Source of the DNA: Lachnospiraceae bacterium
Lineage (GTDB): Bacteria; Bacillota; Clostridia; Lachnospirales; Lachnospiraceae
Direction: 5' to 3'
Assembly: GCA_022794265.1 (NCBI GenBank)
Contig: JAAWEK010000015.1
Span: forward strand, 62,001 to 126,000
DNA: 64,000 nucleotides
A program made the translations under genes and the position numbers. This document shows, piece after piece, positions 40,460-56,954 of the stretch; position 1 is the stretch's first letter, and the number at the start of each line of letters is the position of its first letter. The notes beneath the pieces were generated by a model. It ran no database searches. It had not been told where the DNA came from and saw only the letters and a list, made by a program, of their open reading frames with translations.

Positions 40460-40551
40460 TGCTCCTTGCCGGCTAACTACCGTTTTTTAATATTATACCG
40501 AAGAAAATTATATTATAACAGTACTGATTTATAAACTCTTTAACCGATGTA

Positions 40552-41175
40552 TTATAAAATCTCCAAATTAACATATTTAATATCTCCGTTTTTTGCTGTA
40601 TTAGCACACAAGGCATACCAATGTACTTCGTCCAGTTTAATACTTTTAAATTTTTCTTTCCTTTTTTCTATAACCGAAAAACTGTTTAAAGAGCATTTAA
40701 ACCCTTTTCCAGTATATTTAATATAACTTTCTTTTAATGTCCATATTTTATAGAACCAATTTACCTGATTAGATTCTTCCAATGATTCTAAAAAAAAACG
40801 CTCTTCTTCTGAAAAATAAACAAGCTGTTCCGGCAATTTTGTTTCTTTGATTTTTTCTACATCAACGCCTATTTCTTCATCTCCAACAGCAACTACTATC
40901 CAATCTCCAGAATGAGATATATTAAAATATATACCTTTCATGTCTATATATGGCTTTTTATATTTGGGATAATTGATTATTATACTATCACCATTTAATC
41001 CAATTCCTTCTGTTAGCCCATACCTTACTATTGCCTCTGATATAATTGATCTAATCTTATCTTTCTCTTTATAATATCTATCAGCTCTTGTTATTCTTTC
41101 TTTTGAACAATGCAGCCCTTTTATTTGTTCTATTGAATTTATATTTGCTATATTTATTGCATATTCATAAATCAA
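40552..41175 (-). CDS. 4'-phosphopantetheinyl transferase, Sfp type
   Basis: 207 residues. Transfers the phosphopantetheine arm from CoA to the Ser of a carrier protein. Motifs are FNISHSGDWIVVAVG, GVDVEKIKE (Mg-binding Asp) and the FYKIWTLKESYIKYTGKGF core. Last gene of the cluster, three bases after the metallo-hydrolase. Its likely partner is the ACP domain at the end of the large synthase. No clear terminator follows in the 92 bases before tadA. Confidence 0.92.
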   Translation of the reverse strand: MIYEYAINIANINSIEQIKGLHCSKERITRADRYYKEKDKIRSIISEAIVRYGLTEGIGLNGDSIIINYPKYKKPYIDMKGIYFNISHSGDWIVVAVGDEEIGVDVEKIKETKLPEQLVYFSEEERFFLESLEESNQVNWFYKIWTLKESYIKYTGKGFKCSLNSFSVIEKRKEKFKSIKLDEVHWYALCANTAKNGDIKYVNLEIL

Positions 41176-41178
41176 TGC

Positions 41179-41874
41179 TCAACACCCATTTATAATTTTT
41201 CCTTTACTATATCGTTCTTTCATTTTAATAAATTGATTTTTTGTAGTTGAATAAAAGTATATGTTATTTTCCTTAACATAATCAAAGCTTACTCCCAAAT
41301 CACTTTTAAATTTGTGTCCCGGAAACACCTTTGTTTCACCAAATACTCTTTCTTTCAAAAACAATAAAGAATCATACATTTGTTCCTTTGAACCACCAGC
41401 AAATTCACATGATCCGCATCCTTCTATGAATAGTGTATCTCCAGAAAAAAGAACATCATCAACAAAAAAGCAAGTGCTACCGACAGTATGTCCCGGAGTT
41501 AACATACATTTAATATTTATATCGTTTAAAAAAAATATATCTTCATTTACAAATCCTTTAATATTTTTACAGTTAAAATTATAATATTCGATTTCTTCAT
41601 TTGAAATATGTACAGCCACATCATATTTTTCCGCAAAATATTCTGCTAAATTTGTGTGATCCTCATGAGTATGCGTAAGCAATATCATTTTCAAATGAAC
41701 TCCTTTTTTTGAAATACATTCTTCAATTTTTTTTGCATCCCATGCCGGATCAACCAATAAAGCCTCCTTTGTATTTTTATCGTTGCATAAATAAACATAA
41801 TTAATATAATTATGTCTGCTGGTACGTATAGCTGTTACTTCTATTCTTCCATTATCATAATAATATCCAGACAT
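41179..41874 (-). CDS. Metallo-beta-lactamase-fold hydrolase, BaeB/PksB-like
   Basis: 231 residues with all glyoxalase-II-type metal motifs: HTHEDHTNL near residue 68, PGHTVGST, FSGDTLF and the C-terminal FPGHKF. Similar enzymes (BaeB, PksB) are found in trans-AT polyketide clusters such as bacillaene, where a housekeeping or thioester-hydrolysing role has been proposed. In this cluster, which has no thioesterase, it is a candidate for product release or removal of stalled chains; that is inference. It is five bases after the large synthase gene. Confidence 0.85.
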   Translation of the reverse strand: MSGYYYDNGRIEVTAIRTSRHNYINYVYLCNDKNTKEALLVDPAWDAKKIEECISKKGVHLKMILLTHTHEDHTNLAEYFAEKYDVAVHISNEEIEYYNFNCKNIKGFVNEDIFFLNDINIKCMLTPGHTVGSTCFFVDDVLFSGDTLFIEGCGSCEFAGGSKEQMYDSLLFLKERVFGETKVFPGHKFKSDLGVSFDYVKENNIYFYSTTKNQFIKMKERYSKGKIINGC

Positions 41875-41879
41875 TTTAT

Positions 41880-44800
41880 TTAAAATTCCATTCTTATATA
41901 ATCTGCCAAATCATACACGTTATCATATGCGAATAAATCCATTGGCGTCAATTTGATATTAAGCTTTTTGTTCAAGGCTTTTATCATCTCTAATTCTGTA
42001 ATTGAGTCCATACCCATGTCCAAAAATGAATCATCCATTGAGATATCTTCTTTTTGAATATATAAAATTTCGCCAAGTGTTTCACATAATGTTTTTATTA
42101 AAGATACTTCCTCATCTTTATTACATTCATTAAAAATGAGTTCATCCATTTGCATAACTTCTTTAATATATCTTTTACCTTTTCGATAAGCCACTTCCTG
42201 ACACTTTTCATTATCATTTTCTCTAAGCAACAAATCAAAATTATTACTTAAGGTATCATTTAAATCCAAATCATAAAGTTTAACATTCCATTTATCAAAC
42301 TCTTTCATGATACTTTTTGCAAGACCATTGATGCCATAGTTAATGAACGAACAGCATTCACTTTTATCTATTTGGTTTACGTTATTTGTTATGATTTTAA
42401 AGTCTATTTTCTTTTCAGAATAGCCACAAATATGTAGTAACTTTATTATATTTAACAGTTCAATGTATTCTTTCTCATGAATAGAAATGAAATCCGTTAC
42501 TGTGTATTTTCCATTTAAATCAAATTTCATTGTCGTGAAATAATAAACCATACTAACATTATCTGTAAACATAAGTTTTCTTTGTATAATTTGTTGACTG
42601 TTGCCAGAATCAATTTTTATATAATAAATTTGTGAGTTTATATATTTTTTATTAAATTTTAACTGTATATCCTGCTCATTGTCGTGAAAAAAAACAATAA
42701 TGCTACAATTATATTCCTGATTCAGTTCTTCTTTTACAGCCTCAGCTATCCACTCTTTTGATGTACTTTCAATTAGAGTATCATTTGAAATCTGATTATT
42801 CCAATATTTATTTTCATCAAAACAATACTTCGGCAAATCAACTCTCTTGTAATGTTTCTCGTCAATTAAAGAATTCCAGTTTATATTTAAGCCTTTTTTC
42901 CATAGCTCTATCACAAATTCTTTTCTGTTCTCTTTATCCAGTAAAGAACTATTGATAGTAAAAAGGGTATACTGATCCGGTAAACACTTCATTTTGCATT
43001 TTGAATCAATATTTTCTTTTATGAGCTTCTCTATTTCATATGAAGAAATATTATTTTCACCACTTAAAATCTCATACTGATTTTTTAATGTTTTCTTATT
43101 AAAATTAGAATTACAATTTATAATAACTTCAGAGTATTTTTCTTCATTCATATTTCTTAGAATAATTCCAATACAATCTTCTTTAGTGATAATATCTTCT
43201 GTTAACATATTTAGTAATTCATATATCTCTCGGTTCTCAAAATTTCTTTGTCTACTTAAACTCCATTTAACATTTAACCTATCCAATGAATTTAATATTA
43301 TAATCATAAGAATTAATTTTTTCGGAGTTCCAGTTGTAACATTTTCAGTTATTGACTCTTCAAGAAGAGACTCGAAAATTCCATATTCCTCAATATACAA
43401 ATTCCATTCATCAGCGTATTTTTTAAATGTATGCTGAAATTTATATAAAATCTTTGCTTTTTCAATAAATTCATTACACTGTTTTGAATCCAAACTAATA
43501 CCATCAAATAATTTTCTTAACTGCATTTTTGATATATTAATTCTTTTATATAAACGATTATTAGACCAATCATAAAACGGTATACTAGGACAACCTATTT
43601 TTATTTCTTTAATTGTTTTTTTACCATTTATATAAGCCCTCATGTCCTCAATAGATATAATTCCGCTAATAACTAATGCAACACAAATACCTTCATTTTC
43701 TGAAGTTATAACATCTGATTTCAATCCTATTTTTTCGAGACCCTTATACAAATCATATACTTCTTCAAAATCACCTTTACCAATTACAGAAATAATCTGC
43801 TTCTTTGATTTAGTATCACATATATTTCCCTTATTTGCCAATAATTTTATGATATCTTCCTTATTTTTAACCAAACCACCTATTCTATATTGAAATTGTT
43901 TTCTCCCATTCATTAATGTAAATGAAATATCGGATATTTCATTCTTGCATATTTCATTAATATTTGCAGACCATTCATTTTTTGTTTTAATTAAGCTATT
44001 CTCACTTTTTGCTGAAAGAAGAAAATAATAAGAAACTTCATTGGAATTCGAACATACTTCATCCCTTACATCTTTTTCTTCCATATATTCTTCAAGTAAT
44101 ACGTGTGCATTCGTTCCACCCAATCCAAAAGAACTAATACCTGCTCTAAGAGGCTGATCCTTATTTAATCTTTTCCATTCAGTGCTTTCAGTAACTAATT
44201 TAAACGGGCTATCTTTCATTTCAAGAATCGGATTAATCGTGTTCAAATGCAAACTTTTAGGAATAAATTTGTTGTTTAGCATAAGCACAACCTTTATCAG
44301 ACTTGCCATAGCCGCACAACCTTCTAAATGTCCTATATTTGCTTTTACAGAACCAATCGTACAAAACTGCTTTTCATCTGTATATTCTCTAAACAATTGT
44401 GTTAACGCCTCTACTTCTATAGGATCTCCAAGTGATGTTCCTGTTCCATGAGTTTCAACATATGACACTTCGTTTGGCATAAAGTCCGTTTGCAAATATG
44501 CGTTATGTATTACTTCTTTTTGTGCTTCAACACTCGGCGCAGTCAATGATAATGCATGTCCACCATGATTAATTGCACATCCCTTAATCACAGCATAAAT
44601 CTTGCTATTGGCCTCTACTGCTTTTTCCAATGGTTGTAATAATATAACTGCTACACCTTCTCCAGGAACATATCCATCTGCATCTTTATCAAATGTATGA
44701 CATTTCCCTGTTTCACTAAACATCCTGCTTTTTGACCATGTAGTAAGTTTATTTGATGATAAATGTAAATTTACACCACCTACAAATGCATAATCCGAAG

Positions 44801-45356
44801 ATTCCTCAATCAAAGCCTGACAAGCTGTTTTAAGAGCTACAAATGATGATGAACAACCTGTATCTAATGTAAAGCTTCCACCTTTCAAATCCATATAATA
44901 TGATATTTTGTTTGCTAACATAAAATAATATGTTCCATTTGCAGTACTAATATCTGTTTTTTCGGTTTTATACGGTTCATATGCAACAGATCCAACATGT
45001 ACAGAAGTTATTTTATCTTTAATTTCCTCATATGATATAGAAGAATCTTCAATGCAATGCCATGCCTCTTGTAATAATAATCTCTGGCAAGGATCCATGT
45101 TCTCTGCTTCTCTTGGAGATATATTAAAAAAGTTGTTATCAAATTTATCAATATCTTCAAGAGCACCTAACCATTTACAATATGTTTTGCCTTGTTCCAT
45201 AATATCTGCGGAATATATTTTCAGCGCATCCCATCTCTCTTTTGGAATTACATCAACTGCATCTACACCATTTACAAGATTATCCCAAAACATTTTTTTA
45301 TTTTTAGCTTTAGGAAATCTACATGCCATTCCAACAATCGCTATATCTTTATTCAT
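41880..45356 (-). CDS. Modular polyketide synthase: KS, degenerate middle, ACP
   Basis: 1158 residues. Residues 1-430 are a complete ketosynthase with catalytic Cys168 (LDTGCSSSF), His303 (VETHGTGTSLGDP) and His343 (KANIGHLEGC). Residues about 470-870 sit where an acyltransferase would be but show no GHSxG; a segment ending VDLPKYCFDENKYW matches the linker that normally follows an AT. Residues about 880-1070 look like the structural half of a ketoreductase (INYGINGLAKSIMKEFDKW, VAYRKGKRYIKEV) without a catalytic half. The C-terminus is an ACP with Ser1118 (DMGMDSITELEM). Acyl units would have to be loaded by another protein. It is AT-rich, with many AAA/ATT/TTA codons. Confidence 0.88.
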   Translation of the reverse strand: MNKDIAIVGMACRFPKAKNKKMFWDNLVNGVDAVDVIPKERWDALKIYSADIMEQGKTYCKWLGALEDIDKFDNNFFNISPREAENMDPCQRLLLQEAWHCIEDSSISYEEIKDKITSVHVGSVAYEPYKTEKTDISTANGTYYFMLANKISYYMDLKGGSFTLDTGCSSSFVALKTACQALIEESSDYAFVGGVNLHLSSNKLTTWSKSRMFSETGKCHTFDKDADGYVPGEGVAVILLQPLEKAVEANSKIYAVIKGCAINHGGHALSLTAPSVEAQKEVIHNAYLQTDFMPNEVSYVETHGTGTSLGDPIEVEALTQLFREYTDEKQFCTIGSVKANIGHLEGCAAMASLIKVVLMLNNKFIPKSLHLNTINPILEMKDSPFKLVTESTEWKRLNKDQPLRAGISSFGLGGTNAHVLLEEYMEEKDVRDEVCSNSNEVSYYFLLSAKSENSLIKTKNEWSANINEICKNEISDISFTLMNGRKQFQYRIGGLVKNKEDIIKLLANKGNICDTKSKKQIISVIGKGDFEEVYDLYKGLEKIGLKSDVITSENEGICVALVISGIISIEDMRAYINGKKTIKEIKIGCPSIPFYDWSNNRLYKRINISKMQLRKLFDGISLDSKQCNEFIEKAKILYKFQHTFKKYADEWNLYIEEYGIFESLLEESITENVTTGTPKKLILMIIILNSLDRLNVKWSLSRQRNFENREIYELLNMLTEDIITKEDCIGIILRNMNEEKYSEVIINCNSNFNKKTLKNQYEILSGENNISSYEIEKLIKENIDSKCKMKCLPDQYTLFTINSSLLDKENRKEFVIELWKKGLNINWNSLIDEKHYKRVDLPKYCFDENKYWNNQISNDTLIESTSKEWIAEAVKEELNQEYNCSIIVFFHDNEQDIQLKFNKKYINSQIYYIKIDSGNSQQIIQRKLMFTDNVSMVYYFTTMKFDLNGKYTVTDFISIHEKEYIELLNIIKLLHICGYSEKKIDFKIITNNVNQIDKSECCSFINYGINGLAKSIMKEFDKWNVKLYDLDLNDTLSNNFDLLLRENDNEKCQEVAYRKGKRYIKEVMQMDELIFNECNKDEEVSLIKTLCETLGEILYIQKEDISMDDSFLDMGMDSITELEMIKALNKKLNIKLTPMDLFAYDNVYDLADYIRMEF

Positions 45357-45374
45357 TTATCTTTCTTTAGCCTC

Positions 45375-46985
45375 CTATGCTTGCAAATCTCTTTTTCCAT
45401 ATCCTAAATATCCAACTATTGTTAAAATTGCTGAAATTAGAATAAATACCACTAATTTGATCCAATCCGTACCATCCGCAAAAGTATTTGGTACATTAAC
45501 GTATGGAGATAATTTCATCATCCATTTATCCAAATTCAACATTGAACCAAAATAACTTACAAAAAATGAATATGCCAAAAATGCCCACACTAAAATTGTT
45601 ATTCTTGGTATTAATCCAATTACAGCAATTGCGGCACCCGCTATAATCCAAATTGCTGGAATAAATGCACATGCAGCCTTCAACATATCGCTTAATTCAA
45701 ATGGTGTATCACCAATCACCTGATTTCCAGAAATCCAGAAACTTACCGCAAATATCAATTGCAATACAATAGAAATAAAGATAGAACAAATCAAAAATGC
45801 AGATAACAGTTTTCTTCTTGTTATAGATTTTGAAATGAGGCATTCAATTCTATTTGTAATTTCTTCTTCTCTAATCTTTATGATTGTTGTAATAACAGGA
45901 ATTGTTGTAATCATTGCAAAAATTGAAGTAATAACATTAATAAACTGATACAACAGTTCACCACTATTCGAATCACATGCCAATATTTGTAACATTAACC
46001 CGTTTGACTCAAGTTGGGTTCTTATTTCTTCCAGCATGGCTCCAAACGATATTCCCAGTATTATATAAGCGATTATCCATGCTAAATACTCTACTCTCAG
46101 AATTTTAACAACCAATCCCAACGGACCATGTAAAAATACAGATCCACTGTCTCTGCCGGTTTTTTCATGAAATAATCCAATACCTAAATCTCTTTTACTG
46201 TTAATTAAAAAAGCCAAAAGAATAAATACAACTGAAATTACTATTGATAATATAACTGGCCATATTTTATTCTCAACATACACCTGCGCTCTCATAATCC
46301 AGCCTAATGGTGAAAGGACTGCAACATTTTCATTTCCAATATCACCTATAGCTCTAACAAAATATGAAATTCCAAGTATTGCAAATGAAAAACCTAATGA
46401 AGCTTTTGAATTAGTAAGCAATTGGTTAATACACGCTGTAATTGCAGCAAACATAATACCTGATATTCCCAAAACTATTCCAAACATCATTGAACCAACG
46501 AAATTTATTGATTCTATATTTAATGCAGTCAAACTCAATCCTACTAAAAGACTTAATAGAATATTGATTCCTACACAAACTATTGTTGTCGCCAGTACGT
46601 TAAAAAGTCTCCCAGTTGATTTGGAACGAATAAGTTCTATTCTTCCTGCTTCTTCATCACCTCTAAGATTTCGATTTACAATCAAAATATTCATAATTGC
46701 CACTGCAACAATTGTAAAAAGCAGAGATTGTTGAGACATTAATGCCCCTAAAGAATAATTATCTTTTCCATATGCTTTTCCCATCATTGCCACCATTACA
46801 GGATTACTCATAGACTCTGCAACAATCTGCCTATCAGCCTGTGTTGGATATAAATCACCAAACATTTGTGCCTGCCCTATTGTAATAACCCAAAGTAATA
46901 TTAGCCACACAATAATAAATACTCTCTCTTTTCTCAGTACAAACCTGATATACGTATATGTATTATTAAAGAGATTTTTTAACAT
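45375..46985 (-). CDS. ABC exporter permease of the polyketide-antibiotic type (TnrB3-like)
   Basis: 536 residues from the ATG at 46985 (MLKNLFNNTY), preceded by GGAGATG; upstream in-frame Met codons are worse placed. About twelve hydrophobic segments in two similar halves: each half has an N-terminal amphipathic stretch, then a Glu/Arg loop (NLRGDEEAGRIELIRSKSTG and REEEITNRIECLISKSITRR) after the second segment. This layout matches the 'exporter of polyketide antibiotics' family that includes the tetronasin exporter. It overlaps the ATPase gene by 20 bases and probably exports the cluster product. Confidence 0.87.
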   Translation of the reverse strand: MLKNLFNNTYTYIRFVLRKERVFIIVWLILLWVITIGQAQMFGDLYPTQADRQIVAESMSNPVMVAMMGKAYGKDNYSLGALMSQQSLLFTIVAVAIMNILIVNRNLRGDEEAGRIELIRSKSTGRLFNVLATTIVCVGINILLSLLVGLSLTALNIESINFVGSMMFGIVLGISGIMFAAITACINQLLTNSKASLGFSFAILGISYFVRAIGDIGNENVAVLSPLGWIMRAQVYVENKIWPVILSIVISVVFILLAFLINSKRDLGIGLFHEKTGRDSGSVFLHGPLGLVVKILRVEYLAWIIAYIILGISFGAMLEEIRTQLESNGLMLQILACDSNSGELLYQFINVITSIFAMITTIPVITTIIKIREEEITNRIECLISKSITRRKLLSAFLICSIFISIVLQLIFAVSFWISGNQVIGDTPFELSDMLKAACAFIPAIWIIAGAAIAVIGLIPRITILVWAFLAYSFFVSYFGSMLNLDKWMMKLSPYVNVPNTFADGTDWIKLVVFILISAILTIVGYLGYGKRDLQA

Positions 46986-47877
46986 TGATATCATCTCCAT
47001 TTTCATTGTAGTAATGCATAAATAAATCTTCTAATGCCATTGGAGTCACTTCTATTTTTTCGATATTAAATGCTGATACCTGTTTCATAATTTCTCCAAT
47101 TTTTTCAGAATCAACCTGAAACTTTATTAACCTGTCTTTCTGCTCTACACAATGAACTCCTATTATTTTTTCAATTTGCGTTGCTGAAACTGATGCCATA
47201 ATTTCTACATTCGTTCTTGTAAGATGTCTCAACTTATCTAATGTTCCGGTTTCTATAATCTTCCCATGTTTAATAATTCCAACTTTATCACATAATCTCT
47301 CAACTTCAGATAAAATATGACTTGATAATAGAACACTTTTTCCCTTTTCTTTTGATTCTGCAACACATTCCTGAAAAACACTTTCCATCAGCGGGTCCAA
47401 CCCTGATGTAGGTTCATCTAAAATAAGGAAATCAGCATCTGATGCAAATGCAGCAACCAGAGCAACTTTCTGTCTATTTCCTTTTGAATAAGTTCTACAC
47501 TTTTTTTTAGGATCAAAATCAAATCTCTCAATCAGTTCTTTTTTCTTTAAATCATTCTGTTTTCCATTTAATCTAAGGAAAAAGTCTATCACTTCGCCCC
47601 CAGTTAGATTGTTCCACAAATTAACATCTCCTGGTACATATGCCAGCTTTTTATGAATCTCTTCTGCTTGCTTCCAAACATCTTTTCCAAAAATGGAAGC
47701 ATATCCGGATGTTGCTTTATATACACCTAAAAGAGTTCTTATAGTTGTTGTTTTCCCTGCCCCATTAGGCCCAATAAATCCAAACACTTCGCCTTTCCCA
47801 ATTTGAAAACTTATTTCATTTAAAGCTCGGAAATCACCAAATTGTTTTACCAATTTATTTACATTTAAAACATTCAT
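46966..47877 (-). CDS. ABC exporter ATPase (TnrB2-like)
   Basis: 303 residues from the ATG at 47877 (MNVLNVNKLVKQFG), with GAGGCGAT as the ribosome binding site; the longer frame to 47910 overlaps fabG. Walker A GPNGAGKTTTIR, signature YSKGNRQKV (variant of LSGGQ), Walker B FLILDEPTSGLDP and switch SSHILSEVERL. The C-terminal 80 residues form the family's accessory domain ending ALEDLFMHYY. It powers the adjacent permease. The variant signature with Lys and Asn is common in this exporter family. Confidence 0.93.
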   Translation of the reverse strand: MNVLNVNKLVKQFGDFRALNEISFQIGKGEVFGFIGPNGAGKTTTIRTLLGVYKATSGYASIFGKDVWKQAEEIHKKLAYVPGDVNLWNNLTGGEVIDFFLRLNGKQNDLKKKELIERFDFDPKKKCRTYSKGNRQKVALVAAFASDADFLILDEPTSGLDPLMESVFQECVAESKEKGKSVLLSSHILSEVERLCDKVGIIKHGKIIETGTLDKLRHLTRTNVEIMASVSATQIEKIIGVHCVEQKDRLIKFQVDSEKIGEIMKQVSAFNIEKIEVTPMALEDLFMHYYNENGDDINVKKSL

Positions 47878-47900
47878 TTCTTTATCGCCTCTATACTTTC

Positions 47901-48644
47901 CTAGATACAAATACCACCATTTACTTCACATATCATTCCATTACAATAGGCTCCGTCATCACTTGCAAGCATCATAACTACAGAAGCAATTTCTTCTGGT
48001 TTTCCAAACCTTCCAAGCGGTATTTTTTTTAAATTACGCTCTTTAATTTTTTGTGGAATATTTTCCACCATATCTGTAGAAACCAGTCCCGGAGATACAG
48101 CGTTAACAGTGATTCCTTTTAATCCCAATTCCTGAGAGAGGGTTACAGTCATACCGATTATTCCAGCTTTTGAAGCAGCATAGTTTGCTTGTGTTCTAGC
48201 CCCCTTTTGACCGGCAATTGAAGCTATATTAATGATACGTCCATATTGCTGTTCAATCATATAATTAACCACTGCTTTTGTACAAAAGAATGTTCCATTT
48301 AAATTTGTACTTATAACATTCATCCATTGTTCACAGCTCATCTTCTCAAAAAAATTATCATCTTTGATTCCTGCATTATTTACAAGAATATCAACCCTTC
48401 CATACCTTTCAATTATAAAATCAACCATAGCCTTTGTCTGTTCAAAATCTGTTATATCCACCGCAAACGAAACAGCAGTTCCGCCTTGTTTTATTATTTT
48501 TTTTACTACTTCTTCACACTTTGCATAGTTTCTTGACGCTACAACCACATTTGCCCCCTCTTTGGCAAAACGAATGGCGATACTTTCTCCTATTCCCCTA
48601 CTTGCACCAGTCACTATGGCTATTTTATTCTCTAATATTCCCAT
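47901..48644 (-). CDS. FabG-like 3-oxoacyl-ACP reductase (SDR family)
   Basis: 247 residues. NADPH-dependent short-chain reductase with TGASRGIGES (cofactor), NNAG, catalytic Ser (NIASIAGQKG) and YAASK, and the VSPGLVSTDM segment. Its start overlaps the preceding KASIII stop as TAATG, so the two are translationally coupled. In this cluster it is the only complete ketoreductase and would act on free-standing beta-ketoacyl carriers. A role in general fatty-acid synthesis is unlikely given the position. Confidence 0.93.
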   Translation of the reverse strand: MGILENKIAIVTGASRGIGESIAIRFAKEGANVVVASRNYAKCEEVVKKIIKQGGTAVSFAVDITDFEQTKAMVDFIIERYGRVDILVNNAGIKDDNFFEKMSCEQWMNVISTNLNGTFFCTKAVVNYMIEQQYGRIINIASIAGQKGARTQANYAASKAGIIGMTVTLSQELGLKGITVNAVSPGLVSTDMVENIPQKIKERNLKKIPLGRFGKPEEIASVVMMLASDDGAYCNGMICEVNGGICI

Positions 48645-49651
48645 TATGAATCAATAAAATCCTCCTCACAACACCATTTTATTAACACTGCCCCCCATGC
48701 GAATCCTGCACCAAAAGATGCTAATGCTACTCTTTGCCCCGGCTTTATCAAACCTTTTTCTGAAGCTTCAGCTAATGCAATCATTACTGATCCTGCACCT
48801 GTATTTGCATATTTTTGAAGATTTATATATGCTTTATCCATAGGAAGATGTAATTCATTCATACCAAACTCAATCATATTTATATTTGCTTGATGCGGAA
48901 TAATCCAATCTATATCCTTTGTTTCACAATTTACATTTGCTGCCAACTGTCTGATAGCCAACGGAAATAGCTTCGTCCCAAACTTCCATACTTCCCTTCC
49001 GTCTAAAGTGATTTTAAACTTATTTTGTTTAAAAGCTTTCTCTGTTATTGGAACCCGCGATCCGCCTTCACAAACAATACAATCTGCTCCCCATTCACCA
49101 TCTGCACCAATAAGCGATGTTTCAAAACCGCTTCCTTCTTTACATCTTCTTAAAACAGCAGCACCTACTCCATCTCCAAAATAAACAGATACATACTTAT
49201 CTGAAATATCAACAAGTTTTGAATAGATGTCTCCTGCTATAACAAGTACGTTTTTGTACATTTCATTTTCTATGAATTGTTGCGCTACAACTAATGAATA
49301 ACAGCTTCCAGGACACCCACCTACATTAATGTCAAAAGCTGCCGCATTACATGCACCAAGCTTTTTCTGCATAATAACTGCTGTTGAAGGAACCCGGCAA
49401 TCTTGATTAATAGCACACACGATAATTAATTCAATATCTTCGGACTTTATGCCTGAATTTTTAATTGCATTTAAAGCTGCCGGATAAGCCATATCTGATA
49501 AACATTCATTATCTGCTGCAATTCTTCGCTCTTTAATCCCTATTTTCTTTTGAATCCACTCATCTGTTACATCTGCATACTGTTCTAATTCCTTATTTGT
49601 CATTACTCTCTTTGGCAAATAGTATCCCATTCCTGCAATTCCAACTTTCAT
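48644..49651 (-). CDS. Ketosynthase III with intact triad (typical KASIII, copy 5)
   Basis: 335 residues, FabH-like. Catalytic Cys113 lies in DINVGGCPGSCYSL, His in IPHQANINMI near residue 252, and Asn in YANTGAGSVM. Condensation of an acyl-CoA or acyl-ACP starter with malonyl-ACP is the family reaction. The GGCPGS pattern replaces the usual NAACAGF of FabH and is shared with the other typical copy, so the two are probably duplicates with altered substrates. It is coupled to the FabG-like gene. Confidence 0.92.
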   Translation of the reverse strand: MKVGIAGMGYYLPKRVMTNKELEQYADVTDEWIQKKIGIKERRIAADNECLSDMAYPAALNAIKNSGIKSEDIELIIVCAINQDCRVPSTAVIMQKKLGACNAAAFDINVGGCPGSCYSLVVAQQFIENEMYKNVLVIAGDIYSKLVDISDKYVSVYFGDGVGAAVLRRCKEGSGFETSLIGADGEWGADCIVCEGGSRVPITEKAFKQNKFKITLDGREVWKFGTKLFPLAIRQLAANVNCETKDIDWIIPHQANINMIEFGMNELHLPMDKAYINLQKYANTGAGSVMIALAEASEKGLIKPGQRVALASFGAGFAWGAVLIKWCCEEDFIDS

Positions 49652-49665
49652 TTTTATGTACTCCT

Positions 49666-50493
49666 TTAATTATATGTATAGTATCCTTTTCCGGATTTTC
49701 TTCCTAAATTTCCGTCATCCTTCATTTTCCGAAGTTGCGGACATACTATATATCTTTCGTTATTAAACGCTTTATACATAGTATCGATAACATTAACTGC
49801 AATATCAATTCCTACTTCATCCGCAAGACTTAATGGTCCTATTGGTAAATTCATCCCTAATTTTGCGATAGTATCTATATCCTCTTTATTTGCAACTCCT
49901 TCCATACAGATTGAAGCAGCTTCGTTAACAAGTACTGCCACAAGACGGCTTACAACAAATCCGGGAAAATCATTAACTACTATTGGTATTTTATTTATTA
50001 ATCGAGCTATGTTGCATACATATTCTATCGTCTTGTCAGATGTCTTATTTGTTTTGACAATTTCAACTAATTTCATAACTGGTACCGGCGACATAAAATG
50101 CATTCCAGCTATTTTATCTAACCTATCAACTGCAATATCACCAATTGAAATACTGGATGTATTTGAAACAAGAATTGTATCTGGTGGACATATTTCTATC
50201 AAGTGTGTAAAGACTTGTTTTTTCATTTCCAGATTTTCATTTATACTTTCTATCACCAGTTCACAGTTTTTTACTTCATTAATTTCGCATGTTATATGGA
50301 TATTTGACATCACTTCTTTGTATTCCTCTTCAGTTAGCTTTCCTTTATTTTTTTCGTGAGCAATATATTCATTCAGACGCTCATCATCTACTCGTCTCTT
50401 AATGGCCACAACTTCAATCCCATGAGTTGCACATGATAGTATTATCCCTCTTCCCATTAATCCATGTCCTATCACAGCTACTTTTCTCTTCAT
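49666..50493 (-). CDS. 3-hydroxyacyl-CoA dehydrogenase-like
   Basis: 275 residues, the length of single-domain clostridial enzymes. N-terminal NAD-binding motif VIGHGLMGRGI, the ESINENLEMK and SNTSSISI segments, catalytic His in GMHFMSPVPVMKLVE, and the C-terminal domain with NDFPGFVVSRL and GRKSGKGYYTY. Such enzymes interconvert 3-hydroxyacyl- and 3-ketoacyl-CoA. Inside the cluster, flanked by the two typical KASIII genes, it could make or consume a 3-hydroxyacyl building block. Confidence 0.92.
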   Translation of the reverse strand: MKRKVAVIGHGLMGRGIILSCATHGIEVVAIKRRVDDERLNEYIAHEKNKGKLTEEEYKEVMSNIHITCEINEVKNCELVIESINENLEMKKQVFTHLIEICPPDTILVSNTSSISIGDIAVDRLDKIAGMHFMSPVPVMKLVEIVKTNKTSDKTIEYVCNIARLINKIPIVVNDFPGFVVSRLVAVLVNEAASICMEGVANKEDIDTIAKLGMNLPIGPLSLADEVGIDIAVNVIDTMYKAFNNERYIVCPQLRKMKDDGNLGRKSGKGYYTYN

Positions 50494-50512
50494 ACAGAAT
50501 TACCTCCTGATG

Positions 50513-51499
50513 TTACAATTCAAGTAAAACAGTTCCCCATGCGGTTCCCGCACCAAAAGATACCAGAACTACTTTATCTCCTTTTTTTATTACACCATTC
50601 TCTATTGCCTCAGCTAATGCAATACCAACAGAGGCAGAACTAGTATTTCCATATTTATGAATATTATAATACGTTTTTTCCATTGGTATTCCAAGGTTCT
50701 CCATAGACTGCCTTATGATATTTAAGTTTGCCTGATGCGAAATCACAAAATCTATATCTGATAATGTCATTTTATTTTTTTTGACAATCTCTTTCACTGC
50801 ATCAGGAAATGCCTTCGTGGCAAAATCAAATATAGCTCTTCCATCCATTCTGAAATATTGCCTTTTTTCTTTAATTGCTTGTTCTGTTATAGGTTCTGCA
50901 ACTCCTCCAGCCGGGATGTATGCTGCATAGTAACCTTCCGGATCTGTATATAACTTTGAATCAATAATTCCTGCTTCAGTTTCATCCACAGACTTTAAAA
51001 TGATTGCAGCAGCGCCATCACCAAATATTACTGCTGTTGATCTATCTTCCCAATCAAGTCCTTTTGAATTTATATCTGCTGTAGCGACTAATATTGTTTT
51101 ACATGTTCCATCTGCAATATACTTTGATGCTATAGAAAGAGAAAATACACTTCCAGGACATCCACCGGTTCGTATGTCAAAAGCAAATGCGTTTTTTGCC
51201 CCTATTTTTTTCTGTATTGCCACACTTGTAGCTGGACTTATATGATCCGGAAAATTTGTAGCAAGAAGAATCATATCAATATCGTCAGCCGTTATATTTG
51301 CATTTTTCATTGCTTTTTTAGCTGCCTCAGCTGCCATATCTGAAGTTAATTCATCTTCGGCTGCAATTCTTCTCTCTTTTATTCCAATCTTTGTTGTTAT
51401 CCATTCATCACTCGTATCCATAATTTTCATTAAATCAAAGTTTGTTACAATTTTCCCAGGAACATAATATCCTGTTCCAATTATTTGAGATTTTCTCAT
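50513..51499 (-). CDS. Ketosynthase III with intact triad (typical KASIII, copy 4)
   Basis: 328 residues. Catalytic Cys114 (DIRTGGCPGSVFSL), His (ISHQANLNII) and Asn (YGNTSSASVG) are all present, and the N-terminus (GTGYYVPGKIVTN, GIKERRIAAEDE) is standard FabH. It closely resembles the copy at 48644-49651. The preceding gene of the cluster ends 10 bases before it. It could prime the synthase or perform one extension. Confidence 0.92.
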   Translation of the reverse strand: MRKSQIIGTGYYVPGKIVTNFDLMKIMDTSDEWITTKIGIKERRIAAEDELTSDMAAEAAKKAMKNANITADDIDMILLATNFPDHISPATSVAIQKKIGAKNAFAFDIRTGGCPGSVFSLSIASKYIADGTCKTILVATADINSKGLDWEDRSTAVIFGDGAAAIILKSVDETEAGIIDSKLYTDPEGYYAAYIPAGGVAEPITEQAIKEKRQYFRMDGRAIFDFATKAFPDAVKEIVKKNKMTLSDIDFVISHQANLNIIRQSMENLGIPMEKTYYNIHKYGNTSSASVGIALAEAIENGVIKKGDKVVLVSFGAGTAWGTVLLEL

Positions 51500-51509
51500 T
51501 TACTTCTCC

Positions 51510-52487
51510 TTATACTTTAATTACTAAAGCCGTCCATGTCATTCCAGCTCCTTGAGCCATCATAAGAACATGTTCACCTTTCTTTAACAAGCTGTCATGC
51601 TTCATCCTATAGTAATTCAATAACATATCCACTGTTCCGCAATCCCCTGTATATGATACATATCTGTAATTTGTTTTTTCTAAAGGCATATTAAATGTTT
51701 TTATTACTTTTTCAAATAAACCATATCCCACATTTGGAAAAATAATATGATCAATATCTGATACATTCAATCCACTATTTTTTACTGCCATAATTCCAAC
51801 TTCATGAAAACAGTCAATATTAACAGGTATCATCTTATCTCTGGCTTTTTCATTATCAACAACTCTATAATAATAGTCATCTCCCTGATTCCTGTTTGCC
51901 GGAGGCTTAATTGTTCCAACCTGCATACGAGCCATATCGTGTAGATATCCTTTTCCAATTTGGCCATACCCCAAAATAAAATTTCCTGTACTATTATTTT
52001 GTACAATAGCAGCTACAGCAGCTTCCCCCATAATTAACTTTCCAATCATTCTCTTTGGTACTGTTTCATCCCACTTTTCTGAAGTATTGACAAGTACCGT
52101 ATTAGTTAAATTATCTCCTAATATATAGTTTTTTGCAGTAATCAAGCCTGTAACAAATCCACTACAATTTTGATAAAGATCAAAAAAGGCGGCATTTACA
52201 GCACCAATTTCATTTTGTATTTTTCCAGAAACCTGCCAGGTCAAATAGTCTGGCAAAGTTGCCTGAGTATTTATAATCCAATCAATTTTATCCGCCTTTA
52301 TGTTAGCATCATCAATTGCTCTTTTTGAAGCTATTACTGCCATATCTGTCGCTGTAAAATCAGTCTCATACAATACTGATTTAATACCTGTTTTGATTCT
52401 AAATTCCTCATTAAAATCTGACGCTATCTCATCAATCAAAATATTTGTTTTCGGTACATATACTCCAATCCCTGTTATTCCAATCAT
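51510..52487 (-). CDS. Atypical ketosynthase III-family protein (copy 3)
   Basis: 325 residues with the KASIII fold pattern throughout. The nucleophile is retained as Cys108 (LYQNCSGFVTG). At the His position the sequence reads IFPNVGYG instead of PHQAN, and at the Asn position SYTGDCGTV instead of GNTS, so both decarboxylation residues are changed. KASIII relatives with altered triads include acyltransferases that form esters (CerJ-type) and starter-selecting proteins (DpsC-type). It may transfer rather than condense acyl groups. Alignment is by eye. Confidence 0.85.
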   Translation of the reverse strand: MIGITGIGVYVPKTNILIDEIASDFNEEFRIKTGIKSVLYETDFTATDMAVIASKRAIDDANIKADKIDWIINTQATLPDYLTWQVSGKIQNEIGAVNAAFFDLYQNCSGFVTGLITAKNYILGDNLTNTVLVNTSEKWDETVPKRMIGKLIMGEAAVAAIVQNNSTGNFILGYGQIGKGYLHDMARMQVGTIKPPANRNQGDDYYYRVVDNEKARDKMIPVNIDCFHEVGIMAVKNSGLNVSDIDHIIFPNVGYGLFEKVIKTFNMPLEKTNYRYVSYTGDCGTVDMLLNYYRMKHDSLLKKGEHVLMMAQGAGMTWTALVIKV

Positions 52488-52499
52488 TCTTATTCACTC

Positions 52500-53495
52500 C
52501 TAAAATTTTAGCAAACCAGAGAACCATGCCACACCACCAATTCCTATAAAAAGTATTAAATCGCCTTTTTTTATTTTATTGTTCTTCTTTGCCTTTTCTA
52601 AAAGGACATATATGTCGCCACCACTAAAATGTCCTATATCCTTTTTGAATTCCTGAGCTGTTGGAATGTCTCGTCTTCCCAGAGCTTCTAGTATTCGCTT
52701 ATCAAAATTATCCTGTTGAACAAGAGATATCATATAATCAACATCTTTTAAGCCAAATCCATTTCGTTCCAAAACATTTTTTACTACTTGCACAAATTTT
52801 ATAAATACATAAGGTTTAATTTCGTTCAAGTACATATCTTCTTTGACAGTAACATTACTTACAAAATCCGTTCCATTCCATTCCATTCCTCTTTTAAACG
52901 GAAATGCAGTTCCTCCATTTTTCACATAAGCCATGTCATGACATTTAACATAATTACATATTTCAAAATCCAAGTAATTGAAATCTTTTGCATTTTTCTG
53001 TAATACAACCGCCTGCCCACCTGCACTTAAAAATGTTGGCCACCCATATCCGAACAATCTTTCTCCAGCCACCACCAAAACCGTTTCAATACCTGTATTA
53101 GCTTTAATTTGATTGGCAGCTATTTCTATAGACTCAAAATAGGCTGAACATGCCCCTTTTACATCAAAAGTCAAAGCCTTATCGGCCTTTAATTTATACC
53201 TCAAATAATTACTGAGCTGCCAACTAATATAATCTGTTTTAAATGAAGAAACAATAATCATATCTATGTCGCTTCCGTTAATTCCTGCATCTTTTATTGC
53301 ATTTTTAGAAGCCTCAAGAGCCATAAATGAAGACTGCTCTTCTTCATCAGGAATAAAAATCCGATTCACTCCAATATGTTTATATGCTTTTTCTGTCATG
53401 TTTAACTCATCTGCAATTGCTCTTGTATCTGCCATTTTTTTAGGAAAATAAAATCCCATTCCTGCAATTCCTACCGAAACTGTCTCTTTGTTCAT
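52500..53495 (-). CDS. Atypical ketosynthase III-family protein (copy 2)
   Basis: 331 residues. Cys116 (VKGACSAYFES) is kept. The His position reads ISLVQQDNF in place of IPHQANL, and the Asn position has IGHFSGGDIYV, which offers a His where Asn is usual. As in its neighbours, normal decarboxylating condensation is doubtful. N-terminal GIAGMGFYFPKKMADT and C-terminal FIGIGGVAWFSGLLKF are recognisably KASIII. It forms part of a run of three divergent copies at the start of the operon. Confidence 0.85.
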   Translation of the reverse strand: MNKETVSVGIAGMGFYFPKKMADTRAIADELNMTEKAYKHIGVNRIFIPDEEEQSSFMALEASKNAIKDAGINGSDIDMIIVSSFKTDYISWQLSNYLRYKLKADKALTFDVKGACSAYFESIEIAANQIKANTGIETVLVVAGERLFGYGWPTFLSAGGQAVVLQKNAKDFNYLDFEICNYVKCHDMAYVKNGGTAFPFKRGMEWNGTDFVSNVTVKEDMYLNEIKPYVFIKFVQVVKNVLERNGFGLKDVDYMISLVQQDNFDKRILEALGRRDIPTAQEFKKDIGHFSGGDIYVLLEKAKKNNKIKKGDLILFIGIGGVAWFSGLLKF

Positions 53496-53522
53496 TTCTA
53501 TTTCTCTTTCTTCAAAGTTCTA

Positions 53523-54512
53523 TTACTTTTGAATTACCATTGCTTCCATATTGCAGTCTATACCATTAGAAATAACTAACAACACATCACCTTTTTTATA
53601 AGTTGTATTATTAATAAACTCTGCCAATACTCTCATAGCTCCTACTGTTCCTAGAAATCCTTCATTAGAGATTAAATCAATTCTCTTTGATATATTAAAT
53701 TTACTTAAAATATTATTATTTATTTTCTTACTGAATCCAGCTATTCCAATATAATCTATTTCGTCTTCAGACAATCCTGATTTTTCAATTGCCTTACGTC
53801 CAACTAATACACTAAACTCTTCTGAACATTCTATTATGCCTGCGAGATGAGAATCATCCAATATTCCATATGTAAATTCCCCGTTTTCCAAGGCTTCTTT
53901 TGGTAGTTCGTACTTTGTTCCTCCATATTTGAATCCGGCTACAAGATTATATTTACTTATACTCTCATATGCTATACTCAATATTTCATTTTTTCCTATA
54001 TTGGTTTGAAGAACAACACTTCCTGCAGCATCACCGAGATATGTTGGCCCGAGTTTTCTCTTGTTAGAATGATTATCCCACAAAAGAGAAGATGTAATGA
54101 TTGCCGTCGAAATGTTTTTATTACTAATCAACTGATTTCCTACAAATTGAATTGTCTTTATTGTTCCACAGTTTCCGGTACAAATATCATATGTATATAC
54201 TACATCATCATCTCGCCCGCCTATATTTCTCAGAATTGATTTTGAAGTATCCATATAAAGATAATCAGATATTCCCTCTGAAATACAGACTAATTCATCA
54301 ATTGACTTCGGATTAATATTTTCTATTGATTTTTTCACTACTCTTGTTGCCATTTCTGTAGTCAGTTCGCCTTTATTAGCCACACATATTTGTTCAATTC
54401 CCGATTCATCTGCAACCTCTAAATCATCTGCTAATGTCATTTTACTTATTCTATTATCAGGTATTTCAGTTGCTATAGAATTAATACAGATTTTGAATTT
54501 ATTATCTAACAA
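53523..54512 (-). CDS. Atypical ketosynthase III-family protein (copy 1), TTG start
   Basis: First gene of the cluster. The open frame reaches 54554, but that part contains GAAGGAGGC, nine bases before a TTG at 54512; starting there gives 330 residues, the length of the other copies. Cys115 in TGNCGTIK aligns with the KASIII nucleophile, with a second Cys at 111. The His position is replaced (IGIAGFSKKI) and the Asn position reads NEGFLGTVG. It is the most divergent of the five, and could be non-catalytic or an acyl-transfer partner of another copy, as in PqsBC-type pairs. Confidence 0.8.
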   Translation of the reverse strand: MLDNKFKICINSIATEIPDNRISKMTLADDLEVADESGIEQICVANKGELTTEMATRVVKKSIENINPKSIDELVCISEGISDYLYMDTSKSILRNIGGRDDDVVYTYDICTGNCGTIKTIQFVGNQLISNKNISTAIITSSLLWDNHSNKRKLGPTYLGDAAGSVVLQTNIGKNEILSIAYESISKYNLVAGFKYGGTKYELPKEALENGEFTYGILDDSHLAGIIECSEEFSVLVGRKAIEKSGLSEDEIDYIGIAGFSKKINNNILSKFNISKRIDLISNEGFLGTVGAMRVLAEFINNTTYKKGDVLLVISNGIDCNMEAMVIQK

Positions 54513-54644
54513 ATACTTTCTGCCTCCTTCTAATACCGATTTAAAACGAAACAAATTATTTAATAATATTGATTTTGCATCAATTTTTATTCAATAATCA
54601 GTTACAGTAATTAACAACCGGATATCAAAATGTAATTTTTTATT

Positions 54645-54687
54645 AAACTTTGCACATGAATAAAAATAGAACTCATATGCAAAGTTT
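54645..54687 (-). promoter_or_regulatory. Strong leader hairpin before the biosynthetic cluster
   Basis: A 15-bp stem (arms AAACTTTGCATATGA and TCATGTGCAAAGTTT on the minus strand, one G-U pair) with a 13-base loop. It begins about a dozen bases past the stop of the 17-codon frame. The tail is not a T run, so it may be a processing, stability or antitermination element rather than a terminator. Confidence 0.65.
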
Positions 54688-54698
54688 AAGTCTTTTGT

Positions 54699-54752
54699 TT
54701 AATTTTTCCAAAAGTATTTCCACAAATAGTCCCATAGAGTATAATATATCAT
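54699..54752 (-). CDS. Possible 17-residue aromatic-rich peptide
   Basis: The frame reads MIYYTLWDYLWKYFWKN and stop. GGGAG lies seven bases before its ATG, an ideal distance. Nine of 17 residues are Trp, Tyr, Phe or Leu, giving an amphipathic look. It lies between the terminator of the kinase gene and the leader hairpin of the cluster. It could be a secreted signal for the adjacent AgrC-like kinase, a leader peptide controlling the cluster, or chance; in so AT-rich a gap a 17-codon frame alone would mean little. Confidence 0.35.
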   Translation of the reverse strand: MIYYTLWDYLWKYFWKN

Positions 54753-54770
54753 AAAATCTCTCCCTTCAAA

Positions 54771-54808
54771 TAAAAAACAGACTAAAACATTAGGTACAGT
54801 TTTAGTCT
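54771..54808 (-). terminator. Terminator of the two-component operon
   Basis: AGACTAAAAC / GTTTTAGTCT stem, 10-base loop, then GTTTTTT on the minus strand. The stop of the kinase gene is about 60 bases earlier. This separates the regulatory pair from the cluster. The rest of 54513-54870 (AT-rich) shows only the peptide frame and hairpin; a TTGAAG-17-TATTAT promoter candidate overlaps the peptide frame. Confidence 0.85.
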
Positions 54809-54870
54809 ATCTCATATTCGAACTATAATCCACTATTTTCCCGCAAACGGTCCAATTAATCTGCAAGTGG

Positions 54871-56154
54871 TTAATTCCTTATTCTAAGTTCCACAATAAA
54901 CTGATTTTTTTCGACTTTTAATACAAGTTCTCCACTATTTTTTTCAACAATATTTTTAACATTTTTTAATCCATAACCATGATTTCTTTTATCTGATTTT
55001 GTTGTAAGTATCTCATTTTGGATTATTTTATCTTCTGTATTTTGATATGTATTTTTTATAATAAAATATGTAAAAATTTTTCCAACCTTTATGGTAAAAC
55101 TAATTTTTTTCTCATAATTAACCACCTTATCAACTGCTTCAATTGCATTTAAGATCAAATTAGATATGACGATACATAAATCCCTGTCAGAAACATTTAC
55201 TGAATCCGAAAAATATCCATTTATCTCTATTTTGCATCTTCTTCTAACGGGCAAAAGATAGTAATTCAATAATGTATTTACAGTATCATTACCAACATCA
55301 TAATCATACTTGCTTATAAAAGATATTTCTTTTAAAGTTTCTGCTATATATTTTTCCAATCCATCGTAATCTCTTTTTATAGAAAGGTTTTTTATTTGTA
55401 TCAATTCTGCTATGATATCATGCCGGAACTGTCTTGTTTTTTGCTCCTTCTCTAACAATAATTCAAAATATTTCTTCTGTTGTTCATTATATTTTTCCAA
55501 TACTTCATTCTTTATTTGGTATTTCTGCTGTACATTAAAATAATAAATCATCAATAAAAATGTAACTAGAATTATTCCACCTCCAAAAGTCACAAGACCC
55601 AGCCCAAAAAGCCCCTGTCTCGTATTTATGACCTCAGACAGTGCATATGTAAAATATGAAAGCATGGCAATAATAATAAGCAAAAATAGTGACAAAATAA
55701 TATTCATTCCTGCTTCTAAGATAAAAGCATCCCGTTCAATCTTCCTTCCAAGTAAAAAATAAAATACCCAAAGTAATGCAATAATAATAGTCAAATACGT
55801 TAATGATAGAACAGCATTATCCAGATGTAAAAGATATTTTAAAAAATATCCTGTTACACTTTCCAGAATTGACAACATAAGAAATGCCAGAAAATATAAA
55901 CTGACAGTTTCAAGCCATAATAGATGGTATATCAATGATAAATTTATTACAGACATAACTAATGCCAAAACAAGCGTTATTTCTGTTTTTCCAAGCCACA
56001 CTATACATACCAGGCAAGCTATATTGATAATTATAATAAATAATTTGTTTTCATACTGCTTATCCTGTCTTCTCTTTCCATATATCACATAAAAAAAAGA
56101 TAAATATTCAATTATAACCAGAAAAAATATTAAAATATTTACTAAAATATTCAT
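54871..56154 (-). CDS. AgrC-like sensor histidine kinase (GHKL type)
   Basis: 427 residues from the ATG at 56154 (MNILVNILIFF) with AAGGAT before it. Six or seven hydrophobic segments fill residues 1-215, then a coiled linker and a dimerisation region with the phospho-acceptor pattern TRQFRHDIIAELIQIKNL. The ATP-binding domain has NLILNAIEAVDK (N box) and NHGYGLKNVKNIV (G box). The layout is that of peptide-sensing kinases (AgrC/ComD), but no agrB or agrD gene is nearby. It begins one base after the response regulator stops. It may control the adjacent biosynthetic cluster. Confidence 0.9.
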   Translation of the reverse strand: MNILVNILIFFLVIIEYLSFFYVIYGKRRQDKQYENKLFIIIINIACLVCIVWLGKTEITLVLALVMSVINLSLIYHLLWLETVSLYFLAFLMLSILESVTGYFLKYLLHLDNAVLSLTYLTIIIALLWVFYFLLGRKIERDAFILEAGMNIILSLFLLIIIAMLSYFTYALSEVINTRQGLFGLGLVTFGGGIILVTFLLMIYYFNVQQKYQIKNEVLEKYNEQQKKYFELLLEKEQKTRQFRHDIIAELIQIKNLSIKRDYDGLEKYIAETLKEISFISKYDYDVGNDTVNTLLNYYLLPVRRRCKIEINGYFSDSVNVSDRDLCIVISNLILNAIEAVDKVVNYEKKISFTIKVGKIFTYFIIKNTYQNTEDKIIQNEILTTKSDKRNHGYGLKNVKNIVEKNSGELVLKVEKNQFIVELRIRN

Positions 56155-56155
56155 T

Positions 56156-56863
56156 TCAAATCCTTTTTTTATCAAAATCAATTATTTTTTGCAACACTTC
56201 TCTGAATTTTCGCCTTGCTATAGGTATTTTTTCGCCATTATCCATTTTTACATATTCTTTCCGGACATCACATACATGACATACATTAATAATATAACTT
56301 CGATGCACAGACAAAAAAATTCTTTCATCTAATTCGGCCTGTATGGATCTTAAAGATTTATTGCTTTCAAATATTTTTTCTTTCGAATATATTTTTAAGT
56401 AATCTCTATGAGATTCAATCACTTGTATCTCTCTCTGTTGTAATATACATTCTTTTCCATTATAATTTAATCTGATTATCTCAAAACCGAGTAAAGAAAA
56501 AAAAGCATTATCCAAAGCCTCAAATAATTCCTCTTTTTCAATCGGTTTTGTAACAAATCTTGTGGCGCCAATTTTAAATGCCTCTTTGAATCTTTCTCTT
56601 TTACTTGTCAGCATTATGATAATTTTTTCTTCATCTTTTTTAGATAGTTCCGCTGCTGTTTGAATCCCATCCATTTCAGGCATATCTATATCCAATAAAA
56701 TGATTTTGTATTCCGTCGATAACTCCAATAACTCCTTACCGGAATAACAGTCGAATAAATCATATCTAAAATTCTCTTTATTTTCATATTCCTCTAATAA
56801 TTTCCAAACCTCCTCATGTATCGCGTTTTCATCATCACAAATTACAATATTTATACTTTTCAA
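56156..56863 (-). CDS. LytTR-family response regulator
   Basis: 235 residues. Receiver domain with acidic pocket ICDDEN, phospho-Asp58 in IILLDIDMPEMDG and Lys in FVTKPIEK. C-terminal LytTR DNA-binding domain (YLKIYSKEKIFESNKSLRSI, FLSVHRSYIINVCHV, IARRKFREV). AgrA/ComE-type regulators bind pairs of short direct repeats upstream of target promoters; I could not find a convincing pair before the cluster. First gene of the operon with the kinase. Confidence 0.93.
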   Translation of the reverse strand: MKSINIVICDDENAIHEEVWKLLEEYENKENFRYDLFDCYSGKELLELSTEYKIILLDIDMPEMDGIQTAAELSKKDEEKIIIMLTSKRERFKEAFKIGATRFVTKPIEKEELFEALDNAFFSLLGFEIIRLNYNGKECILQQREIQVIESHRDYLKIYSKEKIFESNKSLRSIQAELDERIFLSVHRSYIINVCHVCDVRKEYVKMDNGEKIPIARRKFREVLQKIIDFDKKRI

Positions 56864-56897
56864 TTCTGAATTCTCCCATAATTATGTATTATTCTAA

Positions 56898-56926
56898 ACT
56901 CTATCAGACTCACTATAAATTGTCAA
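56898..56926 (-). promoter_or_regulatory. Promoter of the two-component operon
   Basis: TTGACA (56921-56926) and TAGAGT (56898-56903) on the minus strand, 17-base spacer. Confidence 0.55.
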
Positions 56927-56954
56927 CAATGGCAAAAAAACTTTTTGCCGTTGT
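56926..56954. promoter_or_regulatory. Palindrome between divergent promoters
   Basis: Arms of 13 bases (ACAATGGCAAAAA pairing with TTTTTGCCGTTGT, one non-Watson-Crick position) around a 3-base centre. Its outer ends touch the -35 boxes of both divergent promoters, as an operator shared by the two directions would. A bidirectional terminator is an alternative. Confidence 0.55.

Follow-up and report, generated by a model that had tools for sequence, protein, structure and literature searches.

A candidate biosynthetic cassette built on five KASIII-fold lineages in a Lachnospiraceae genome

To our knowledge, known clusters carry one or two KASIII proteins, which serve to start or join chains. 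Here we examine an operon with five KASIII-fold proteins in a 64,000-nucleotide stretch of DNA from a Lachnospiraceae bacterium (GenBank assembly GCA_022794265.1, contig JAAWEK010000015.1, positions 62,001 to 126,000 of the forward strand), which we call the window and whose own numbering is used throughout. We think it fairly probable that the core of this operon is a conserved biosynthetic cassette, consisting of five functionally distinct KASIII-fold proteins (K1–K5), a 3-hydroxyacyl-CoA dehydrogenase (HCDH) and, usually, a FabG-type reductase (SDR) and the same pair of ABC transporter proteins (ABCa, the ATPase, and ABCp, the permease). KASIII-containing biosynthetic clusters are a known kind of system; the conserved five-lineage set appears to be new. 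No named cluster with such a set was found in the open-access literature, judged mainly from titles and the starts of abstracts.

The best precedent for one part of the cassette is lipstatin synthase, LstAB. In the available part of its description, LstA and LstB are adjacent KASIII-like paralogs with 23% identity, one with a Cys-His-Asn (C-H-N) triad and one more diverged, which form a heterodimer that condenses two acyl-CoAs, is soluble only as a complex and requires a glutamate, E60 (PMC12141560). As in LstAB, a catalytic KASIII in the cassette is encoded beside diverged KASIII proteins, and by analogy LstAB offers the closest model for a partner role of K1. The two systems differ in that LstAB has two KASIII proteins and the cassette five, and the same part of the source describes neither a Cys-Pro-Asp (C-P-D) or Cys-Leu-His (C-L-H) group nor a fixed order of HCDH, SDR and ABC genes. 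A second comparison is the celluxanthene cluster, cex, of Clostridium thermocellum, for which the available text lists two KASIII proteins (CexA and CexC), a phosphopantetheinyl transferase (PPTase), a polyketide synthase (PKS), an acyl carrier protein (ACP) and a hydrolase; the PKS is iterative, with ketosynthase (KS), acyltransferase (AT), ketoreductase (KR), dehydratase (DH) and ACP domains, and the cluster also has an AMP-dependent synthetase (PMC12144888). The window operon shares with cex an anaerobic host and the combination of KASIII, PPTase, PKS, ACP and hydrolase; it differs in having five KASIII proteins against two, and neither an HCDH nor an exporter is described for cex in that text. 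Conversely, the window operon gave no AMP-ligase match, and its KS protein gave no match to AT, KR or DH. The available part of a further source makes no mention of KASIII (PMC11839114).

The operon and its five KASIII lineages

The operon runs from 54512 down to 40552 and comprises 12 genes, all on the minus strand, spaced by 3–27 bp or overlapping by at most 41 bp; this layout bears out the twelve tightly packed genes noted in an earlier reading of the same DNA (the original prediction). The most likely start of K1 is a TTG codon at 54512, preceded by AGGAGG, and coincides with the end coordinate in that reading. The features of the operon are as follows.

53523..54512, minus strand: K1, KASIII-fold pseudo-enzyme; ortholog group without the catalytic Cys, His and Asn
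52500..53495, minus strand: K2, KASIII with C-(L/I)-H replacing C-H-N
51510..52487, minus strand: K3, KASIII with C-P-D replacing C-H-N
50513..51499, minus strand: K4, KASIII with C-H-N triad; GGCPG nucleophile loop longer by one residue
49666..50493, minus strand: HCDH, 3-hydroxyacyl-CoA dehydrogenase
48644..49651, minus strand: K5, KASIII with C-H-N triad and GGCPG loop
47901..48644, minus strand: SDR, FabG-like ketoreductase
46966..47910, minus strand: ABC transporter ATPase with DrrA-like C-terminal domain
45375..47006, minus strand: putative ABC transporter permease, 543 aa, co-conserved
44067..45356, minus strand: KS domain (residues 1–430) of the KS–ACP protein, trans-AT PKS type
42753..43766, minus strand: AT relic (residues 531–868) of the KS–ACP protein; TSENEG replaces the GHSxG elbow
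42117..42752, minus strand: probable truncated KR region (residues 869–1080) of the KS–ACP protein, from alignment only
41895..42092, minus strand: ACP domain (residues 1089–1154) of the KS–ACP protein
41179..41874, minus strand: metallo-beta-lactamase-fold hydrolase (SolJ/BaeB-like), accessory
40552..41175, minus strand: Sfp-type PPTase, accessory

K2–K5 exceed the Pfam cut-offs for both PF08541 and PF08545. K1 is the weakest KASIII, matching PF08541 only (24.7 against a cut-off of 26.6 in the protein search, 27.4 in the genome search). The source genome, which is 91% complete, holds seven matches to the KASIII C-terminal domain, five of them in this operon. Searches of Pfam and NCBIfam also recognized the HCDH, the SDR, the ABC ATPase, the KS–ACP protein and the Sfp-type PPTase, in agreement with the names originally given to the oxidoreductases and to the Sfp-type, ABC and KS–ACP genes. 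The nearest model for the hydrolase was SolJ, with a score under the model cut-off, and the 543-aa permease had no Pfam or NCBIfam match at E 0.001.

We compared the KASIII proteins across five records: the window, three from Clostridia (Firm_05, AS23 and AS08) and one assigned to Aquimarina, all described in the next section. Because K1, K2, K3, K4 and K5 each formed a clade of their own at 100/100 in a tree of 57 rows (five rows per K), the paralogs split before the records diverged; an origin of the set by recent duplication was rejected on the same clades. The active sites differ in parallel. K4 and K5 carry C-H-N, K3 carries C-P-D and K2 carries C-(L/I)-H, in five of five records each. 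In K1 the triad is lost in all five: in the order window, Firm_05, AS23, AS08 and Aquimarina, its catalytic columns read N/N/S/N/A, A/C/S/L/A and F/Y/Y/Y/Y. The original prediction of five KASIII proteins therefore stands for the fold, and the Cys-His-Asn triad is confined to K4 and K5, being absent from K1, K2 and K3 in every record. Because they are separate lineages with their own active-site signatures, the five proteins seem to have distinct jobs rather than to be FabH five times over.

In a separate set of 82 KASIII rows, 66 were C-H-N, and C-L-H occurred in K2 and in four proteins from other genomes. By eye, the operons of these four look catabolic, with CoA-transferase-like genes beside the KASIII gene; most also have FabG-like genes and transport genes of branched-chain type. 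CerJ and ChlB3, which have an acyl-transfer role and were named from PDB matches, are weak sequence relatives of K2 and K3. For K1, a Cys adjoins the old catalytic position in the window copy, and one alignment pairs it with the Cys of K4; we rejected this residue as a nucleophile, as the orthologs have N, S or A and no adjacent Cys. OleA carries a Glu in its partner-facing loop. By eye, a Glu occupies this loop in K1 of all five records and in the C-L-H proteins, and none was seen there in K4 or K5.

The HCDH has a signature of its own: all five cassette copies carry Ser in the ..SRL motif, and among five non-cassette HCDHs that we aligned, four have Asn at this position, and the only other Ser is in one of the two Anaerovirgula proteins. 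We also rejected a beta-branching cassette, which combines an HMG-CoA synthase with enoyl-CoA hydratases: HMG-CoA synthase models scored far under cut-off for K2–K5 and were not listed for K1, and domain searches found no member of the enoyl-CoA hydratase family among the operon proteins.

Recurrence of the cassette in other genomes

Searches with single proteins returned distant relatives. Among the matches listed, which had 17–37% identity and were in some cases partial, no ortholog outside the source genome was evident for K3 (397 genomes of the family and the genome_contigs collection), K2 (391 genomes of the class) or K1 (398 genomes of the phylum). Plasmids held no ortholog (best identities 27% for K3, 40% for K5 and 30% for K2), and none was found in the viral contigs searched. 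Because K4 and K5 share a nucleophile loop that is one residue longer, we looked in genome_contigs, a collection described as covering 84,980 species, for a DNA motif that codes for this loop, FD-I-x-x-GGCPG. The motif retrieved 31 stretches. K4/K5-like proteins are encoded in 12 of them, which belong to 10 contigs; the remaining 19 had no such protein at E 1e-5 and were dropped. Two of the 10 contigs were actinomycete and high-GC and were excluded from the comparison. Four of the 10 carry the full K1–K5 set.

Three of these four are from Clostridia: Clostridiales bacterium Firm_05, Clostridium sp. AS23ysBPME_38 (AS23) and Clostridiaceae bacterium AS08sgBPME_186 (AS08). All three have the gene order of the window, K1-K2-K3-K4-HCDH-K5-SDR-ABCa-ABCp, and in each of them all nine core genes are reciprocal best hits at 35–68% identity, as computed between the relatives' stretches and 14 window proteins. 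The fourth record, labelled uncultured Aquimarina, was compared over 40,000 of its 47,605 bases. Here K1–K5 and HCDH are reciprocal best hits at 33–56% identity; K1–K4 stand in order. About 7 kb separate them from HCDH, K5 and a sixth KASIII, and this interval holds LolA-like, MacB/FtsX-type and ABC ATPase genes. The GC content of this record, 0.409 in one 20-kb stretch, is higher than is usual for Aquimarina, so mis-binning is possible, although the neighbours of the cassette are of Gram-negative type.

The order K1-K2-K3-K4, and HCDH directly beside K5, are found in all five records. The cassette genes are inherited together. Because the nine genes recur in the same order in three Clostridia records, they are not conserved as separate housekeeping units, the outcome against which the original proposal of genes that belong together had been set; the proposed dedicated exporter is likewise supported, in that the ABC pair travels with the KASIII genes in the same three records. 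The metallo-beta-lactamase-fold hydrolase and the Sfp-type PPTase had no match in the stretches of five relatives compared.

Looser assemblies of related genes were also seen. Anaerovirgula multivorans has eight KASIII-like open reading frames (ORFs), two HCDH and two SDR genes in about 19 kb, together with pyruvate/2-oxoacid ferredoxin oxidoreductase-type subunits and glyoxalase-fold, SCP2 and DUF362 proteins. In two Clostridia records, SKW22 and N1, a K4-type KASIII is accompanied by HCDH-, KS- and PPTase-like genes; SKW22 additionally has a B12-radical-SAM protein, two condensation-domain proteins and a glycosyltransferase-like protein. A block in another genome (G321) combines three KASIII proteins (C-H-N, C-N-Y and C-P-N) with an HCDH, two KS, two PPTase-like ORFs, an SDR and a LytTR/kinase-like pair.

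The KS–ACP protein and a possible route

The KS domain of the KS–ACP protein shares 49–51% identity with KSs from two genomes of the same family, G054 and G345, in which the KS closely follows an AT-like gene; in G345, one KS-like ORF stands between the AT-like gene and the matched KS. The AT relic has TSENEG at the place of GHSxG, and hhalign gave it a 69% probability against an AT profile, over 53 columns around the elbow, and 0.2% against a KASIII control profile; the relic is likewise degenerate in the G054 and G345 relatives. The KR remnant is probable, being based on alignment with no Pfam match. On these comparisons the protein is a decayed trans-AT PKS module composed of KS, AT relic, probable truncated KR and ACP. 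This agrees with the earlier description of an AT-less KS–ACP synthase, as the module has lost GHSxG and with it a working cis AT. The operon contains no discrete AT, and the sole AT-family match of the source genome, on another contig, is FabD-like. The protein resembles trans-AT PKSs in KS type and degenerate AT, and differs from them in having one module, a truncated KR and no AT gene. In G345, the PKS cluster includes a hydrolase 40% identical to that of the window, with a LytTR/kinase-like pair and a LanM-like protein upstream.

The distribution of the KS–ACP protein does not follow that of the cassette. In Firm_05, a homologous KS–AT relic–KR–ACP protein occupies the place of the KS–ACP gene, with a complete KR and an AT gene adjacent. 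In the AS08 genome the sole match at E 1e-3 has 28% identity and is a FabF-like protein in an operon that resembles fatty-acid synthesis. In AS23, Csm6 and not a KS protein follows the permease, and elsewhere in the genome the best match covers part of the KS at 35%. PKS-type KS matches are numerous in the Aquimarina genome, and none of those listed is on the cassette contig. Among eight other genomes of the source genus, five gave only matches of 23–26% (ORFs of 419–445 aa) and three gave none. Because the protein is fuller in Firm_05 and does not accompany the cassette in the AS08, AS23 and Aquimarina stretches, it is accessory and not core, and has been partly lost in the window copy.

We propose that K4 and K5 would each catalyse a Claisen condensation of thioesters of CoA or host ACP, and that HCDH and SDR would reduce the beta-keto products. 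K2 and K3, which keep the Cys and have the His and Asn replaced, may be acyl-transferases or non-decarboxylating condensers, and K1 could be a non-catalytic partner subunit, analogous to LstB for LstA. In the source genome, the cassette would have acquired a hydrolase, a PPTase and a decayed trans-AT PKS of one module, and the FabD-like protein presumably supplies the malonyl units. The predicted product is a small hydroxyacyl- or polyketide-like molecule that is exported. A bolder version, which we regard as tentative and somewhat doubtful, is an assembly line of KASIII proteins only, in which five different KASIII-fold proteins (one of them dead) hand on and join acyl units in a set sequence, the carrier being CoA or a borrowed ACP, and a modular PKS is not needed; in this version the family would have spread between phyla, its Anaerovirgula multivorans relative reaching eight KASIII proteins. 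If the cassette works as proposed, KASIII-fold proteins can share out the labour of one pathway, with five lineages and three non-canonical active sites. The set is compact (nine genes, about 9 kb), comes with a residue-level prediction for each enzyme and probably represents an unstudied route to an exported small molecule.

Several points weigh against this proposal. The branching order of K1, K2 and K3 has moderate support only (82/40 and 92/86), and K1 of Aquimarina has a long branch and odd composition in the tree. The GGCPG of K4 and K5 was the bait of the motif search, so that every record necessarily has it in one or both of these groups; the His and Asn of K4 and K5 and all K1–K3 signatures are independent of the search. 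The Aquimarina record lacks matches to the SDR and to the permease of the window. The invariant positions of K1 (52 of 322 overall) are found in the partner-facing loop (7 of 23) but also around the old Cys (3 of 16), His (6 of 13) and Asn (4 of 13), so that a partner role fits weakly. The suggested roles of K1–K3 are read from residues only, and product, substrate and enzyme activity are predicted from the genes. Because inspection by eye suggests a catabolic character for the operons of the four C-L-H proteins, some cassette steps could be catabolic.

Alternative readings and the genomic islet

An unlikely but still credible alternative is that the operon tailors membrane lipids or fatty acids, the KASIII set yielding unusual starters or an envelope lipid that the ABC pair would move. 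Two records fit this idea: in AS08 the cassette follows an operon resembling fatty-acid synthesis (NMO/FabK-, AccC- and AccD/A-type genes by Pfam, others by eye) and another KASIII, and in Aquimarina the cassette genes flank the LolA-like protein and the MacB/FtsX-type permease. The window copy argues the other way. It is joined to a PKS relic, a PPTase, a hydrolase and a two-component system, which is more like specialized metabolism, and it lies in a low-GC islet of 16.5 kb (GC 0.312, against 0.406 in the remaining window) that is absent from the same site in two species of the genus. The islet and its remaining genes are the following.

40460..56996, strand not assigned: whole low-GC islet between tadA and a GNAT gene
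54871..56181, minus strand: GHKL sensor kinase, upstream of the operon, within the islet
56156..56863, minus strand: LytTR response regulator, within the islet

The site was compared in three of the eight other genomes of the genus, chosen by a close ortholog (60–65%) of the flanking HD-domain gene. In G780 and G776, the tadA and GNAT matches are separated by 197 and 146 bp, respectively, which leaves no space for the islet. In G182, the tadA match is absent from the stretch compared, and the GNAT gene is adjoined by other genes.

We consider it more improbable that the cassette serves a catabolic or fermentative thioester pathway, with the KASIII proteins as thiolases and HCDH as a beta-oxidation enzyme. 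The gene neighbours of the four C-L-H proteins point in this direction, as do the ferredoxin oxidoreductase-type subunits in the eight-KASIII locus of Anaerovirgula; against it stand the DrrA-type C-terminal domain of the ABC ATPase, the ACP-bearing PKS proteins in the window and Firm_05 copies, and a dead K1, which a plain thiolase route explains poorly. Least probable is the model of the original prediction, in which all five KASIII proteins iterate on the ACP of the KS–ACP protein: the tight packing in the window and the pairing of cassette and KS–ACP protein in Firm_05 would suit it, but the protein is missing from the AS08 genome and from the AS23 and Aquimarina cassette stretches, and three of the five KASIII proteins lack the canonical triad and the residues for ordinary decarboxylating condensation, K1 being without a nucleophile.

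Returning to the islet, its LytTR system perhaps controls the cassette; the source genome has eight LytTR matches in 2.88 Mb. The flanks (160 bases) contain no integration-site repeats of at least 10 bp. Because genes of polysaccharide type, as judged by eye, adjoin the same GNAT gene in G182 (locus positions 1–6990), the site suggests an insertion hotspot. Between the kinase gene and K1, a 17-codon ORF (MIYYTLWDYLWKYFWKN; 54699–54752, minus strand) stands behind GGGAGAG. It is preceded by a terminator-like hairpin downstream of the kinase gene (54772–54808) and followed by a strong hairpin (54643–54689), and it could encode a leader or signal peptide.

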